Shown in pieces: positions 1,799 through 9,143 of a DNA stretch of 12,698 nt. The notes under the pieces were generated by a model. It did no database searches. It was not told where the DNA came from and saw only the letters and a list, made by a program, of their open reading frames with translations. Position 1 is the stretch's first letter; every line of letters begins with the position of its first letter. The stretch is from Candidatus Cloacimonadota bacterium (GTDB lineage: Bacteria > Cloacimonadota > Cloacimonadia > Cloacimonadales > TCS61), in the NCBI GenBank assembly GCA_030445745.1, contig JASUTE010000033.1, positions 1 through 12,698 on the forward strand, given 5' to 3'. Made by a program: the position numbers and the translations under genes.

Positions 1799-3682
1799 TC
1801 AATACACAAACACCACGCCGCTGGTGGGGAAGACCCATTCATCTGCTTGCACTTTCACCCTTATTTCGCCCTCTTTTTCCATAATTTGCGGGAATTTGCT
1901 ACGGCCTGAGAATATAGGCACCGCTTCCACCTCTTTCAGAATGTTAGCAAAAATAAAACGAATATCCACTCCCTGCGTAAGCTCGATAAGGTAAACACTC
2001 AGCTGGTGTGAACTTTTGGGGTAGTAGGTGCGGGTAGAGATAGAAAACTCTACTTCCTGACCAACTAATTCAGCCAGTTTTTCATGCTGGCAGCGAATTT
2101 CCAAACAACCATTTTTGTGGCTGGCAGTGTGTTTTAATTCCATGCCGTTTATCTGCACCGAATCTATGGCAAACTGGTTGGTATTCAAGTTTGTATCCAA
2201 CAGCCAGCGATATTCCACATCAGTGCGCTGAAAATATTGTTCCAGCTTGTCTTCATCGGGAGCACAAGCCACATAAAAATAGTCATGCTGCAGTATTTTA
2301 CTAAAATTCAACGTAGTTTTTGCCAAAAAATAATCCTGAAAATCTGGTTGGGAAGCAGGCGCAAATTCAATAGTGTGCCTAAAATTCCTACGATAATGAA
2401 TATTTCTATCGCGGTCACTAAAAAACCGTTTCAGCACATCTTCGTAGATCAAATTAGCTATCTCCTTGCTCTGCAAACGGTGCTCGATAGCTGTCTCAAT
2501 GATATTAGTAAGCTTTTTATCGGAAAAATCGGTAGGCACGAAATCGCGGCGTAAATAGGGTGAACTAGCAATTATTTTACCATTTTTGCGAAAGTATCGC
2601 TTGGCTCTGCGGCCTATCTGACACAAAATTTCATAGGTACTGCCACCATAGAGCTTGGTTAAATTTTCTGCACGTATCTCGGCAAAATTATTACCCAGCA
2701 GCACTACTTCGTCGCCTACATCTACATTTTCCAGCTGGGATACATCCACCGCACTCATATCCATGCTTATTTTTCCTAAAATGGGGCAAAGTTGGTTGTT
2801 CACCACTGCCACTGCCTGGTTGGAAAGCATAAAATCATAGCCATCGGCATAACCAACCGGTAGAATAGCATATTTCATATACTGGGAAGCTGTGAAGGTG
2901 CGGTTGTAACCAATAGAATCGCCTGGTTGTGCTGTTTTCAATTGCGAGATCTTGGTCTTAAAGCTCATCACCGGTTTCAACTCTAGCTTGTCACGCAAAC
3001 TGGCATCGCTGTAAATGCCATAGCTCAGTAAACCTATCCTAACCAAATTAGCAAAACCAACTTGCGCATTCACAGCACCGCTACTGTTTTCTATGTGCAC
3101 ATATTGGGGCGAAATTTCTAGCTTTTCCAATAATTGGAAAAAACGCTCCGTTTGCTGGTGAGTGTATTCGGCATCGTTTTCTGCTGCCGAGTAGTGGGAA
3201 AAAACGCCCTTTATCGTCAGTTTATCTAATTTCTGAATTTGGGAGATACTCTTAGCAGCAGCTTGGTAACTAAAACCGCTGCGCCCCATGCCAGTATCTA
3301 CGTTCACATGAATGGGAAATTCATTTTCCAGGTGCTTATTCAACTCACGGGCAAATTCCAAACTGGAAACAGTGGGGGTAAGGTTGTTTTCTATTATTAT
3401 GGGAATCTCCGATTTTAGGGAAGGCGACAAAATAAGAATGGGGCTGCTAATGCCCTGAAAACGCAGTAATGCGCCTTCTTCGGCATTGGCTACTCCTAAA
3501 TAGACTGCACCTAATTCCAAAGCCTGCTTTGCTATTTGATAAGCACCATGGCCATAGGCATCCGCCTTTACTATCTGCATGAAATCTTTTCTGCCCCAAA
3601 AGCGCTTGAGTTCAGCCAAATTATGGGCAAAATTATCTAAATCTATCTCTGTCCAACTGCGGTCTTTCTGCAATTTATTCAT
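1799..3682 (-). CDS. alr: Alanine racemase with a C-terminal extension of about 260 residues
   Basis: The enzyme interconverts L- and D-alanine for peptidoglycan in the cytoplasm, using PLP. Residues 1-368 form the usual racemase. The PLP lysine is K39 in VKADAYGHG. The TIM barrel shows HVNVDTGMGRSGF, HIENSSGA and R215-IGLLSYG. The C-terminal beta domain has the catalytic tyrosine Y259 in SIGYNRTF, GYADG and GKISMDMSAVDV. Ordinary Alr ends at about 370 residues; this protein continues to 627. The extra part has a helical start (RRDFVPTDFSDKKL ... IIETAIEHRL), then beta-rich, aromatic-rich sequence ending EWVFPTSGVVFVY. I do not recognise a named domain there. The gene lies 8 bp behind phoH and is probably co-transcribed. 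GAGAGG directly abuts the ATG with no spacing, while TTG at codon 4 sits 9 bases from it, so the true start may be three codons later. Confidence 0.9.
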   Translation of the reverse strand: MNKLQKDRSWTEIDLDNFAHNLAELKRFWGRKDFMQIVKADAYGHGAYQIAKQALELGAVYLGVANAEEGALLRFQGISSPILILSPSLKSEIPIIIENNLTPTVSSLEFARELNKHLENEFPIHVNVDTGMGRSGFSYQAAAKSISQIQKLDKLTIKGVFSHYSAAENDAEYTHQQTERFFQLLEKLEISPQYVHIENSSGAVNAQVGFANLVRIGLLSYGIYSDASLRDKLELKPVMSFKTKISQLKTAQPGDSIGYNRTFTASQYMKYAILPVGYADGYDFMLSNQAVAVVNNQLCPILGKISMDMSAVDVSQLENVDVGDEVVLLGNNFAEIRAENLTKLYGGSTYEILCQIGRRAKRYFRKNGKIIASSPYLRRDFVPTDFSDKKLTNIIETAIEHRLQSKEIANLIYEDVLKRFFSDRDRNIHYRRNFRHTIEFAPASQPDFQDYFLAKTTLNFSKILQHDYFYVACAPDEDKLEQYFQRTDVEYRWLLDTNLNTNQFAIDSVQINGMELKHTASHKNGCLEIRCQHEKLAELVGQEVEFSISTRTYYPKSSHQLSVYLIELTQGVDIRFIFANILKEVEAVPIFSGRSKFPQIMEKEGEIRVKVQADEWVFPTSGVVFVY

Positions 3683-5357: not shown

Positions 5358-5801
5358 ATGGGATTAAGAAGAAAAGGACGTGAAATTGCTTTGCAGACAC
5401 TTTATTCGCTAGAGTATCTGGAAACAGATTCCTATTTAAAAGAATTAGGCTGGTTGGAAAAATATAAGGAAAAAATGGCTGAGATATGCGAAGATAATCA
5501 TATCGAAACAGATTCCAAAATCTGTGAATTTGCCGCTTCCATAATAGAAGGAATTATTCCAAATCTTGATGTAATAGATGAAAATATCGGTTCTCATTCC
5601 ACCAACTGGTCGATTGATAAAATTGCCAACCTCGATAAATGCCTGCTCCGCATAGCAACCTACGAAATGCTATTTACCCAAACTCCTCCTCCCATAGTTA
5701 TGGATGAAGCAATTGAGATCGCTAAAAAATTCTGTGCTGAAAGTTCTAGTAAATTCATAAATGGAATTTTAAACGCTATTGCTAAGGAAAAAGATGAGTA
5801 A
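5358..5801 (+). CDS. nusB: Transcription antitermination factor NusB
   Basis: This 147-residue protein is close to the usual NusB length. It starts with the basic motif MGLRRKGREIALQTLYSLEY, the RNA-contacting first helix of NusB. It ends with the family signature IDKIANLDKCLLRIATYEML, then PPIVMDEAIEIAKKFCAE and SSKFINGILNAIAKE. NusB binds boxA RNA together with S10 (NusE) and supports rRNA antitermination in the cytoplasm. GGAG at 5346-5349 lies eight bases before the ATG. It is the first gene of a tightly packed six-gene operon, and its last eight bases overlap the glycosyltransferase start. Confidence 0.96.
   Translation: MGLRRKGREIALQTLYSLEYLETDSYLKELGWLEKYKEKMAEICEDNHIETDSKICEFAASIIEGIIPNLDVIDENIGSHSTNWSIDKIANLDKCLLRIATYEMLFTQTPPPIVMDEAIEIAKKFCAESSSKFINGILNAIAKEKDE
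5784..5788 (+). promoter_or_regulatory. Ribosome binding site inside nusB that sets the glycosyltransferase start
   Basis: AAGGA ends five bases before ATG at 5794, within the last codons of nusB. The longer in-frame alternative, TTG at 5779, lies upstream of this site and would add only five residues. The placement implies translational coupling to nusB. Confidence 0.7.
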
Positions 5802-6684
5802 TCTAGCCTGTTCTATCGGGGTAATAGTTTACAATGAAGCAGCCAATATTGGCAATTTACTGCAGGCTTTGCAAAATCAGAAACTAAATAAAGCAGAGAT
5901 TACTGAAATCATTGTGGTTTCCAGCGCTAGCAGCGATGGTACCGACCAAATAGTGAAAGAATTTTGCCAGAAAGATAAGCGTATAAAGTTAATTTCAGAA
6001 ACAGAAAGAAACGGAAAAGCGGCTGCTATAAATAAATTCATTACTGCTGCCACTAGCGATATTTTGATAATTGAAAGTGGCGATACTATTCCGGAAGAAG
6101 ACACTGTAGAAAAACTGGTTACACCTTTCCAAGATGAAAAAATCGGTATGACAGGTGGGCGGCCTATTCCACAAAATAAAGCAAACAGTTTTATTGGTTA
6201 TGCAGTAAACTTACTGTGGAAAATGCATCATAAAATGGCATTGCAGAGCCCTAAATTGGGTGAAATGGTAGCCTTTCGCAAGGTATTTGAAAAAATTCCG
6301 CCAGAAAGTGCTGTCGATGAAGCTTCCATCGAAGCTAAAATAAAAGAAAATGATTTAAAAAAGATCTATATCCCCACAGCTATTATTCACAACAAAGGTC
6401 CTGAAACTCTATCTGATTTTATAAAACAAAGAAGGCGCATAGCAGCCGGCCATTTATGGTTGCAAGATAACGCTAACTACAGCGTAAGTTCCCAAAACAG
6501 CGCTTTGCTAATAAAATTAGCTTGGGAAGAGATTGTGCGCTATCCCCATACTATATTTTATCTGAGCGCGGTGGTATTTATCGAGCTCTATTCACGCTAT
6601 TTAGGATGGAAAGATTATAAAATAAAGAAGTTAAATCCCTTTAAATGGGATATAGCCAAAACCACCAAAGATTTGAGGAAATAA
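5794..6684 (+). CDS. Glycosyltransferase, family 2-like (GT-A fold)
   Basis: The 296-residue protein opens with CSIGVIVYNEAANIGNLLQA, the nucleotide-sugar-binding start of GT2 enzymes, followed by SSASSDGT (43-50) and NGKAAAIN (73-80). The usual DxD metal site is replaced by ESGDTIP (94-100), which keeps one acidic residue at each end. Later come GEMVAFRK (156-163), VDEA (174-177), which may supply the catalytic base, and the QRRRIAAGH acceptor-side motif (212-220). One hydrophobic stretch (about 254-270) could associate with the membrane but is marginal. The donor and acceptor cannot be read from sequence. It overlaps nusB by 8 bp and the radical SAM gene by 1 bp. Its partner suggests synthesis or modification of an envelope glycan or lipid, which is inference. 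Confidence 0.85.
   Translation: MSNLACSIGVIVYNEAANIGNLLQALQNQKLNKAEITEIIVVSSASSDGTDQIVKEFCQKDKRIKLISETERNGKAAAINKFITAATSDILIIESGDTIPEEDTVEKLVTPFQDEKIGMTGGRPIPQNKANSFIGYAVNLLWKMHHKMALQSPKLGEMVAFRKVFEKIPPESAVDEASIEAKIKENDLKKIYIPTAIIHNKGPETLSDFIKQRRRIAAGHLWLQDNANYSVSSQNSALLIKLAWEEIVRYPHTIFYLSAVVFIELYSRYLGWKDYKIKKLNPFKWDIAKTTKDLRK
6675..6679 (+). promoter_or_regulatory. Ribosome binding site setting the radical SAM start
   Basis: GAGGA lies four bases before ATG at 6684, in the last codons of the glycosyltransferase. The upstream in-frame ATG at 6645 has no such site and would add 13 residues that only reflect the overlapping gene. Confidence 0.65.
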
Positions 6685-7766
6685 TGCTGGAATTGATTCC
6701 CAAGATATTGATGTATAAATTCATGCGCAAACACGATCTGCTGCAGCTATTACCCATAAACTTTACTGTTAGTGTTCTTTACAGTTGCAATTCCCGCTGC
6801 AAAACTTGTAATATTTGGAAAAAAGAAGCCAAAAATCTTACTCTTTCGGAGTATGAACTTATTTTCAAAAAAATTGGTAAAGCACCTTATTGGATCACTA
6901 TTAGTGGGGGTGAGCCCTTTCTCCGGAAAGATCTTCCTGAAATTTGCGAAATCATCTATCGTCATTCCCGACCAGCTATTATCAATATCCCCACCAATGG
7001 CCTGTTAACAGAAAAAATAGTAGCAGATGTAAAAAAAATTGCCACAACCTGCAAAAAAAGCCAACTGATAATTAACCTTTCTGTAGATGGCATCGGCAAA
7101 CAGCACGATGAGATTAGGCAAATTCCCAATAATTATAAAAAAGTGATGAAAACATATTCTCAACTGCAAGATTTAAAGTTAAAAAACCTGTCAATAGGCA
7201 TTCATACAGTTATCTCTCGTTTCAATGTAGAAGATTTTCCCAAAATTGCTAATGTGCTTTTATCTATGCACCCCGATTCCTATATAACCGAAATTGCCGA
7301 AGAGAGGGAAGAGCTGGACACCAAAGGAGCTAAAATCACTCCTAGCCTTATTTCCTATCGTTCTGCAATCGATTTCCTTAGCCATCGCATTAAAAATAAT
7401 AAATTCAAAGGAATGAGTAAAATAACTCAAGCTTTCCGTATTGAATATTACAATATGGTCAAGAAAATATTGCGTGATCAAACGCAAGTGATACCCTGCT
7501 ATGCCGGTATTGCTTCGGCACAAATATCGCCCGATGGCGAAGTTTGGAGTTGCTGCATAAAGGCAAATTCACTGGGTAATTTACGCCAGCAGGACTATAA
7601 TTTTAAGAAAATCTGGTTCAGTAAAAATGCAAAAAAAGAGCGTATTTCAATAAAAAATAAAGAATGCTACTGCCCGCTCGCAAATGCTTCCTACACCAAT
7701 ATGCTTATGGATATTCCCACCTTGCTACGGGTGTTTTATCGCTCTTTTATAAAATGGTGGAGTTAA
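6684..7766 (+). CDS. Radical SAM protein with SPASM-like C-terminal cluster region
   Basis: This 360-residue protein has the CxxxCxxC iron-sulfur motif C35-x3-C39-x2-C42 in YSCNSRCKTCNIW. It also has SGGEP (74-78), which contacts SAM, and NLSVDG and GIHTVIS barrel strands. The C-terminal cysteines C272, C290, C291, C328 and C330 are arranged as in SPASM domains (CYAGIASAQISPDGEVWSCC, then CYC). The enzyme should form the 5'-deoxyadenosyl radical and carry an auxiliary cluster. SPASM proteins act on peptides, but this broad subgroup also includes enzymes of unknown substrate; no precursor peptide gene is visible here. It overlaps the glycosyltransferase stop (TAATG) and ends 3 bp before the next gene. 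The last residues (FYRSFIKWWS) are basic-aromatic and may touch the membrane. Substrate unknown. Confidence 0.9.
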   Translation: MLELIPKILMYKFMRKHDLLQLLPINFTVSVLYSCNSRCKTCNIWKKEAKNLTLSEYELIFKKIGKAPYWITISGGEPFLRKDLPEICEIIYRHSRPAIINIPTNGLLTEKIVADVKKIATTCKKSQLIINLSVDGIGKQHDEIRQIPNNYKKVMKTYSQLQDLKLKNLSIGIHTVISRFNVEDFPKIANVLLSMHPDSYITEIAEEREELDTKGAKITPSLISYRSAIDFLSHRIKNNKFKGMSKITQAFRIEYYNMVKKILRDQTQVIPCYAGIASAQISPDGEVWSCCIKANSLGNLRQQDYNFKKIWFSKNAKKERISIKNKECYCPLANASYTNMLMDIPTLLRVFYRSFIKWWS

Positions 7767-7769
7767 AAT

Positions 7770-9143
7770 ATGCAAATTATCTCTCATTCCGATAGTTTTG
7801 CCAGCAATTATGCTTTGTTCGATGTTTTTAAAAGTCAGGAAAAGAACATTATTCTGCTTACTCATAATTTAGAAGATTATCCGTCTCTGAAAAAGATCAA
7901 TGCGCATATCTTGAAACGGGTAATGCAGCTAAAACTTCAGGATGTAATGGTAGAAGACTTGGAAAAAACGCTACAGGAGTTTTTCGTTGAACTTAATTGG
8001 CAGCTTTATTCCTTTTTTCGCAAAGCAGACACTAAAGATTTTGGAACTTCGCTGGTGCTGGTCATTATGCTGCAAGACCAAATTTATCTGGTACGCTTTG
8101 GCAGGCTGCTGGTGGCAAGGCTATACAAAGACCAGTTGGAATACATTGGCGAAAAATGGGACAACTTCAAAGTAAAATCTCGCAAAGACCTGTTTTTACT
8201 GGGAAGCAGAGACGAAGATATTCACGTTAAAGTTCATAATATTAAGCTGAAAAACGATGAATATCTGTTCTGCCTGGATTCTATGACTGCTGAAAAAATG
8301 CAAAAAACTGGTTTCAACCACCTTTCTTTGTTGGAAAACATTCAAGAAGAATACCAAAAACAGCCATTCCCTTATTTTATTATTTCTGGTAAAACAATTT
8401 CCAAAAAGAAAAAGCGAAAGATTCTGGCCAATAAAAGGTTAAGAAATCTGACTATATTTGTTGCTTTAGCTATTATTTTATCAGCACTTTATGTTAATTT
8501 TGGTAAAAATTTCATAGCAGAGCAACAGAGAATTCTTAAGCATCGAATTAGTGAAAATCAGAAAAGCCTATTGGAATTTGCTGCAGATATCTCTTTGTAT
8601 CCACACCAGAAAATAGAACTGAACAAAAAGTGGGTCAAAACGTTTTCCAATGGTATTCAACACACGCCTTTAGTAGATATAAAAAACATCTATATATGCT
8701 CCAAAAACGAGATTCTAGTATACCGTAAAATGACAGATAACCTGCGCTGGAGTAAAGAATTTGACGATAAAATTATAGGAATAGAACTTTTGGATGCCAA
8801 TCGTATACTGGTGATTACAGCAAAAAACGAACTAATGTGTTTAAATCGAGATTATGGCTCTATAGTTTGGGAAAACAAAACTGAACAAGCACTTACTAAG
8901 CAAAATGCAAATAGTAACTTTTTCCAAATTTCTGTTGATGACTACCGCCAGTTAAGTGGTAGTATCGTGCTGGTTTATTCGCTAAATAGTCTTCAGATTT
9001 TGGATGTGATAACGGGTGAGCAAATTAACAGTTACACCTCGTCTCGCGGTATAAAATACGTAAGTAGATTTGATATTTTGGAAAAATGTGTATATTTAGT
9101 AGAAGGCAATAAACTAACTAAACTAGTTTTGGAAGTGAAATAA
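7770..9143 (+). CDS. Single-pass membrane protein: degenerate PP2C-like N-terminal region plus PQQ-like propeller repeats
   Basis: I do not recognise this 457-residue protein as a named family. Residues about 90-175 resemble the core strands of PP2C (PPM) phosphatases: GTSLVLVIM, then IYLVRFGRLLVARLY where active enzymes read VGDSRAYL, then a loop and DEYLFCLDSMT where active enzymes have a DG pair. The metal-binding aspartates are absent, so it would be a pseudophosphatase. A lysine-rich stretch (KKKKRK, 212-217) precedes one transmembrane helix (about 227-245), predicting an N-terminus in the cytoplasm. The outer part (about 285-457) contains PQQ-like beta-propeller repeats (GSIVWENK, ITGEQINSY), but too few for a full propeller. 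GGAG lies seven bases before the ATG. The stop overlaps the NUDIX start (TAATG). It may couple an extracytoplasmic propeller to a cytoplasmic partner, which is inference. Confidence 0.7.
   Translation: MQIISHSDSFASNYALFDVFKSQEKNIILLTHNLEDYPSLKKINAHILKRVMQLKLQDVMVEDLEKTLQEFFVELNWQLYSFFRKADTKDFGTSLVLVIMLQDQIYLVRFGRLLVARLYKDQLEYIGEKWDNFKVKSRKDLFLLGSRDEDIHVKVHNIKLKNDEYLFCLDSMTAEKMQKTGFNHLSLLENIQEEYQKQPFPYFIISGKTISKKKKRKILANKRLRNLTIFVALAIILSALYVNFGKNFIAEQQRILKHRISENQKSLLEFAADISLYPHQKIELNKKWVKTFSNGIQHTPLVDIKNIYICSKNEILVYRKMTDNLRWSKEFDDKIIGIELLDANRILVITAKNELMCLNRDYGSIVWENKTEQALTKQNANSNFFQISVDDYRQLSGSIVLVYSLNSLQILDVITGEQINSYTSSRGIKYVSRFDILEKCVYLVEGNKLTKLVLEVK

Follow-up and report, generated by a model that had tools for sequence, protein, structure and literature searches.

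A Cloacimonadota protein family predicted to join a PP2C-fold pseudophosphatase domain, a membrane helix and a half propeller, encoded beside a glycosyltransferase and a radical SAM enzyme

The window, which is the whole 12,698-nucleotide stretch of DNA analysed, carries an intact open reading frame at 7770-9143 on the forward strand that starts with ATG and encodes 457 residues. The opposite strand of this interval had stops throughout in the single frame tried, and no open reading frame of 80 or more amino acids was listed there. The features of the locus are as follows.

5779-6684, forward strand: family 2 glycosyltransferase, a conserved neighbour (Pfam, 2.7e-27; conserved gene order)
6645-7766, forward strand: radical SAM/SPASM enzyme, a conserved neighbour whose stop codon ends 3 bases before the pseudophosphatase start (Pfam, 8.4e-13 and 1.1e-6; adjacency)
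7770-9143, forward strand: whole gene for a predicted PP2C-fold pseudophosphatase with membrane helix and half propeller, 457 amino acids (open reading frame, relatives, AlphaFold model)
7770-8399, forward strand: PP2C-fold domain without metal aspartates, residues 1-210, predicted cytoplasmic (structure comparison, hhalign, metal positions)
8100-8105, forward strand: G111-R112, aligned with Gly-Asp of the PP2C GDSR motif (alignment of 44 relatives)
8400-8447, forward strand: basic stretch ahead of the membrane helix, residues 211-226 (K/R count)
8448-8504, forward strand: predicted single membrane helix, residues 227-245 (hydropathy 2.18; model helix 218-261)
8505-8600, forward strand: linker, residues 246-277, of variable length among relatives (low model confidence at 259-277)
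8601-9140, forward strand: short PQQ/BamB-type propeller domain of about four blades, residues 278-457, predicted extracytoplasmic (PQQ_2, models, constant length)

The order nusB, family 2 glycosyltransferase, radical SAM/SPASM enzyme and pseudophosphatase gene was found phylum-wide, and in other families ribH usually lies ahead of the nusB-led cluster. In every locus scored for both genes, the pseudophosphatase gene lies on the same strand as the radical SAM gene and downstream of it, mostly after a gap of 3-33 bases; some loci of class f13 have longer gaps or overlapping start calls. Deep branches share this association with the enzyme pair but differ in the genes that lie further downstream. 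Across the deepest split, identity was about 53-63% for the enzymes and about 25% for the pseudophosphatase protein. The enzyme pair occurs without the pseudophosphatase gene at eight Cloacimonadota loci, none of them at contig ends. Relatives of the radical SAM enzyme outside the phylum reach about 57% identity, and at 15 loci in other phyla the enzyme stands without the pseudophosphatase gene, with the glycosyltransferase adjacent in three. Apart from loci cut off by a contig end, every pseudophosphatase gene seen had the radical SAM gene with it, and no secretion genes were noticed adjoining the pseudophosphatase gene.

Several further genes were observed in or near these clusters. At four class f13 loci (L118, L119, L120 and L122), extra open reading frames of about 75-125 residues lie between the glycosyltransferase and radical SAM genes, and at L114 an open reading frame of 926 residues occupies the same place. 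In a genome of another phylum (L164, 1889-10363), the genes downstream of the glycosyltransferase and radical SAM pair were named by eye as methyltransferase-like proteins, an iron-sulphur protein and two radical-SAM-like proteins, a set that suggests a larger modification pathway. In the window itself, the gene at 900-1715 on the forward strand encodes a protein of 271 residues with a match to the SeqA C-terminal domain at its end (1.2e-7, exceeding the Pfam cut-off), and it adjoins transposase-like fragments at the contig start. SeqA is usually regarded as a gammaproteobacterial replication regulator. The alanine racemase gene at 1799-3682 on the reverse strand encodes about 260 extra C-terminal residues without a Pfam match, and relatives of the same family also carry long versions at this place.

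Across the whole window protein, hydropathy exceeded 1.5 only in 19-residue scanning windows starting at residues 223-231, and its AlphaFold model has one long helix at residues 218-261. Ten K/R residues lie within residues 207-226, and in 38 of 44 sequences more K/R residues precede the helix than follow it. By the positive-inside rule, the predicted topology places the N terminus inside and the C terminus outside. The preliminary description had proposed a basic cluster, one transmembrane helix and then propeller-like repeats outside. The cluster was found ahead of the sole hydrophobic stretch (residues 227-245), and PQQ_2 matched the C-terminal part at residues 295-426 (E = 2e-7; 31.3 bits against a Pfam gathering score of 27.6), with the same rule giving its predicted placement outside.

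A single-sequence scan of residues 1-210 matched no Pfam family, and Pfam scans of the window protein found no protein kinase domain. AlphaFold models were generated for the window protein, from 17 sequences (mean pLDDT 78), and for a relative from Candidatus Syntrophosphaera thermopropionivorans (mean pLDDT 82); the two are not fully independent, since most of their sequences are common to both. The window model matched the solved PP2C 2pk0_C with a Z of 17.0 (3.3 Å over 197 residues), and the model of the relative matched a solved PP2C with a Z of 20.0 (3.0 Å over 203 residues). Among the matches listed for both models, the inner-domain structures were all PP2C-type. A 44-member inner-domain profile was then compared by hhalign with canonical PP2Cs of the same phylum, which gave an E of 7e-6 and a score of 43.4, while 20 column shuffles scored 9.6-17.9 and the reversed profile 13.8. 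These predicted structures and profiles support membership of the inner domain in the PP2C superfamily by fold and by ancestry. When the inner-domain profile was compared with the sequences of solved structures, the only match was at chance level (2kk4, E = 0.14), so a sequence search of solved structures alone would miss PP2C. A weak nSTAND match in five of 27 members (best 8.6e-4) is probably due to chance and was set aside, since PP2C was the outcome with both models and with the profile comparison.

The aspartates of the DGMGG, GDSR, SDG and DN motifs align to columns without a conserved acid in the 44 relatives. At the GDSR position the glycine is present in 44/44 relatives, and the aspartate is replaced by arginine in 42 and by lysine in two. 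Asp170 of the window protein lies one column from the SDG aspartate and is common to only three of the 44. Ser94, Gly111 and Gly145 are invariant among them; acidic residues at positions 18, 35 and 150 are frequent but never invariant, and no conserved Asp/Glu/His/Cys set was found at the metal positions. The exact alignment register is uncertain at 9% identity, yet a shift of one or two columns would still restore no conserved aspartate set in these sequences. No relatives that retain the metal residues were found, including among members of other families in the same class. The alignment also has a gap of about 18 residues at the flap subdomain, where the model is of low confidence (residues 129-150), and the inner domain appears to be short of most of the substrate flap. 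By motif, and with structure, profile comparison and conservation behind the reading, the inner domain is thus a predicted dead phosphatase. The earlier suggestion of a PP2C-like region that had lost its metal aspartates therefore held on each point: a PP2C fold was predicted inside and a propeller outside, no unrelated N-terminal fold was seen, and the losses extend from the window protein to 44/44 relatives at the aligned positions.

Among the relatives the outer domain is of short and constant length. PQQ_2 matched 19 of 21 relatives at E ≤ 0.01, and the domain spans 178-188 residues in all 44 relatives, which rules out a truncation in the window alone as the source of the short propeller. 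The propeller had been described at the outset as partial, and it is so throughout the family. The models have about 16 strands when the first strand, which lies ahead of blade one, is taken to complete blade four, otherwise short of its fourth strand. Against propeller structures the outer domain scored a Z of 13-15, and it superposed on seven-bladed propellers at roughly 2.5-3.4 Å over some 155-180 residues. About 180 residues leave room for four blades, not for eight in one chain, and so for half a ring; the half ring would be open, because a closed four-bladed ring should not superpose on seven-bladed propellers in this way. The models therefore point to an open half ring, and a pair of them would add up to the eight blades of BamB. 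BamB was the closest sequence match of the outer domain, although the score against the curated BamB model was 24 bits, against a cut-off of 285.2.

A scan of genome contigs with the single protein found no relatives. An alignment was needed as the query to detect them, a broad alignment being too diverse for this use, and the alignment scan yielded 17 loci, all with Cloacimonadota-type titles or from Candidatus Syntrophosphaera thermopropionivorans. A 21-member profile matched 110 of 124 Cloacimonadota genomes, or 107 once the weak matches away from the locus in G032, G037 and G038 were left out. The inner-domain profile alone matched 87 of the 124, and much of this difference arises because some genomes have the outer half only. 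In 262 genomes outside the phylum there was no full-length relative; the matches listed fall in the propeller part (best 3.2e-9). As far as searched, in these 262 outside genomes, the family thus appears confined to Cloacimonadota.

Within the phylum the protein is fused at some loci and split or reduced at others. On a tree of the radical SAM protein that includes 58 Cloacimonadota loci, the pseudophosphatase of these loci was fused at 36, encoded by two genes at four, present as the inner half only at three, present as the outer half only at seven and absent at eight. At least 12 changes of state are needed on this tree. The fused form, which is intact in 38 of 62 loci, is probably ancestral because it is found on both sides of the deepest split, and these two observations also rule out a sequencing frameshift as the origin of the architecture. 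The window falls in a group of 19 loci with only moderate support (92/75), all other members of which are split, halved or without the gene. In the lone outer halves the start codon lies 3-30 bases past the radical SAM stop, which makes a sequencing slip unlikely there, and the lone inner halves are without the membrane helix. Assembly errors are possible in individual metagenome-derived genomes. One split case (L066) carries a further stop and may be decaying. At another locus (L047, 7635-8954) the outer half is clear and the inner half barely matches the family, its inner domain being strongly diverged or replaced. A clade that splits, halves or loses this protein beside a kept enzyme pair offers a natural experiment on how its parts depend on one another.

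We favour, with a rough probability of 0.4, a bitopic inner-membrane pseudophosphatase that would act by binding and not by catalysis. Its inner PP2C-fold domain, in which the metal site has been traded for a conserved Gly-Arg/Lys, would most likely serve as a membrane-bound dock for the glycosyltransferase and radical SAM/SPASM enzyme or for the substrate of the two. Outside, the half propeller would bind either the product or a partner in the envelope, and would perhaps pair with a second copy to give an eight-bladed ring. We infer the localisation, the binding of the enzymes and other partners, the dimerisation and any part played in the making of a glycan or lipid. The most economical reading is that the protein is an accessory to the enzyme pair, because the enzymes stand alone and the pseudophosphatase gene was unseen without them (contig ends excepted). 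The enzymes can persist where the gene has been lost, and so do not depend on it. An inner half that is soluble and on its own, as at three loci, would by itself anchor nothing to the membrane. In a more speculative and quite improbable extension, two copies would meet and close the outer half propeller, each lending its first strand to the last blade of the other, and ring closure outside would control assembly of the glycosyltransferase and radical SAM pair on the phylum-specific dead phosphatase inside.

A possible but doubtful alternative is a signalling receptor, in which the half propeller senses the state of the envelope and the dead phosphatase relays it by binding a phosphoprotein or a Ser/Thr kinase, as a substrate trap. 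Ser/Thr kinases were found in the window genome and in 22/22 relatives tested, and the basic residue that replaces the GDSR aspartate in 44/44 relatives could favour phosphate binding. The eukaryotic pseudophosphatase PHLPP has been proposed to have lost catalysis, to have kept substrate binding and to act as a scaffold (PMC12002173). However, no Ser/Thr kinase was found adjoining the pseudophosphatase gene, and kinases present in all 22 tested genomes do not discriminate and point to no partner; the search for a partner kinase that had been suggested earlier thus yielded kinases in the genome but none beside the gene. Canonical PP2C_2 was undetected in 9/9 tested f13 genomes, all of which carry the pseudophosphatase (eight by the inner-domain profile and G114 by the 21-member profile), so canonical PP2C_2 is not required. 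The apparent loss of most of the substrate flap, as judged from the alignment, also counts against this reading. At 14 examined loci the halves are separate (four) or lone (ten), which breaks a one-molecule relay and makes it unlikely as an obligatory core function. The preliminary description had left the choice between a relay receptor and a scaffold; from the sequences, the relay is weakened by these separate and lone halves and the scaffold strengthened by the conserved gene order, and an accessory scaffold or regulator of the enzyme pair is probably to be favoured over an obligatory transmembrane relay.

Among the kinases observed, one on another contig of the same genome (L194, 6637-12072, contig C31) has 1812 residues and, as judged by eye, a Ser/Thr kinase followed by ATPase-like, repeat-rich and histidine-kinase-like parts. 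Kinase-bearing open frames of about 1820-1870 residues occur in most of the 22 relatives tested.

It is unlikely that the protein is instead a BamB-like envelope-assembly factor, functionally unconnected to the enzymes encoded beside it, its operon position being historical. The outer domain's closest sequence match would agree with this, and neighbours in the cluster need not share a function, because nusB and ribH are also there in many genomes. The domain is, however, half the length of BamB and falls far below the curated score, the protein has a membrane helix and not a lipid anchor, and the association with the enzyme pair has been kept over deep branches while genes further downstream change. 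Continued enzymatic activity of the inner domain, through altered chemistry or through metal ligands at other positions, is very improbable: PP2C folds can serve other tasks (a de-AMPylating PP2C is mentioned in a review, PMC13358185) and Ser94, Gly111 and Gly145 are invariant, but the metal positions hold no conserved ligand set, the GDSR aspartate has become basic and the frequent acidic residues at positions 18, 35 and 150 are not invariant.

The architecture is new; its component folds are known. No description of a pseudophosphatase with a helix and a half propeller was found in the open-licence literature, and an earlier one elsewhere is possible; the same literature yielded nothing useful on half-propeller homodimers, split propellers with velcro strands or Cloacimonadota with these enzymes. 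A 2025 survey of PP2C proteins in bacteria is silent, in its main text, on propellers and on PQQ. Bacterial PP2C/PPM phosphatases (Stp1, tPphA, PstP and RsbX) resemble nearly the entire inner domain in fold (Z about 14-20) and show profile-level homology to it, but at 7-14% identity, and the Cloacimonadota protein differs in having no metal aspartates, no GDSR and a flap mostly deleted in the alignment. The PP2C pseudophosphatases named in the papers found are TAB1, PHLPP and Cyr1 (PMC12002173, PMC13358185). TAB1 and PHLPP likewise have a PP2C fold with the active site lost, and PHLPP has been proposed as a membrane scaffold; they keep a single metal ion (PMC12002173), whereas all metal positions examined here are changed. 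They also lack the propeller and membrane helix of the Cloacimonadota protein. Ser/Thr kinases with PQQ repeats (PMC1262709) similarly join a phosphosignalling-type domain to such repeats, with a kinase in the place that is taken here by a dead phosphatase. BamB and other PQQ-type propellers share the blade sequence motif and the predicted fold of the outer domain, which has 180 residues against about 360 in BamB, has a membrane helix where BamB has a lipid anchor, and is fused to an inner domain. Most known PP2C pseudophosphatases are eukaryotic, and the present family is a conserved bacterial one. With its metal residues gone, one membrane helix and half a propeller, it is a clean case in which to study the use of a dead phosphatase. 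EssB of type VII secretion and GspL of type II secretion resemble it in combining an inactive enzyme-like inner domain, one membrane helix and an outer domain in a scaffold role, although their folds, inside and outside, differ from those of the Cloacimonadota protein.
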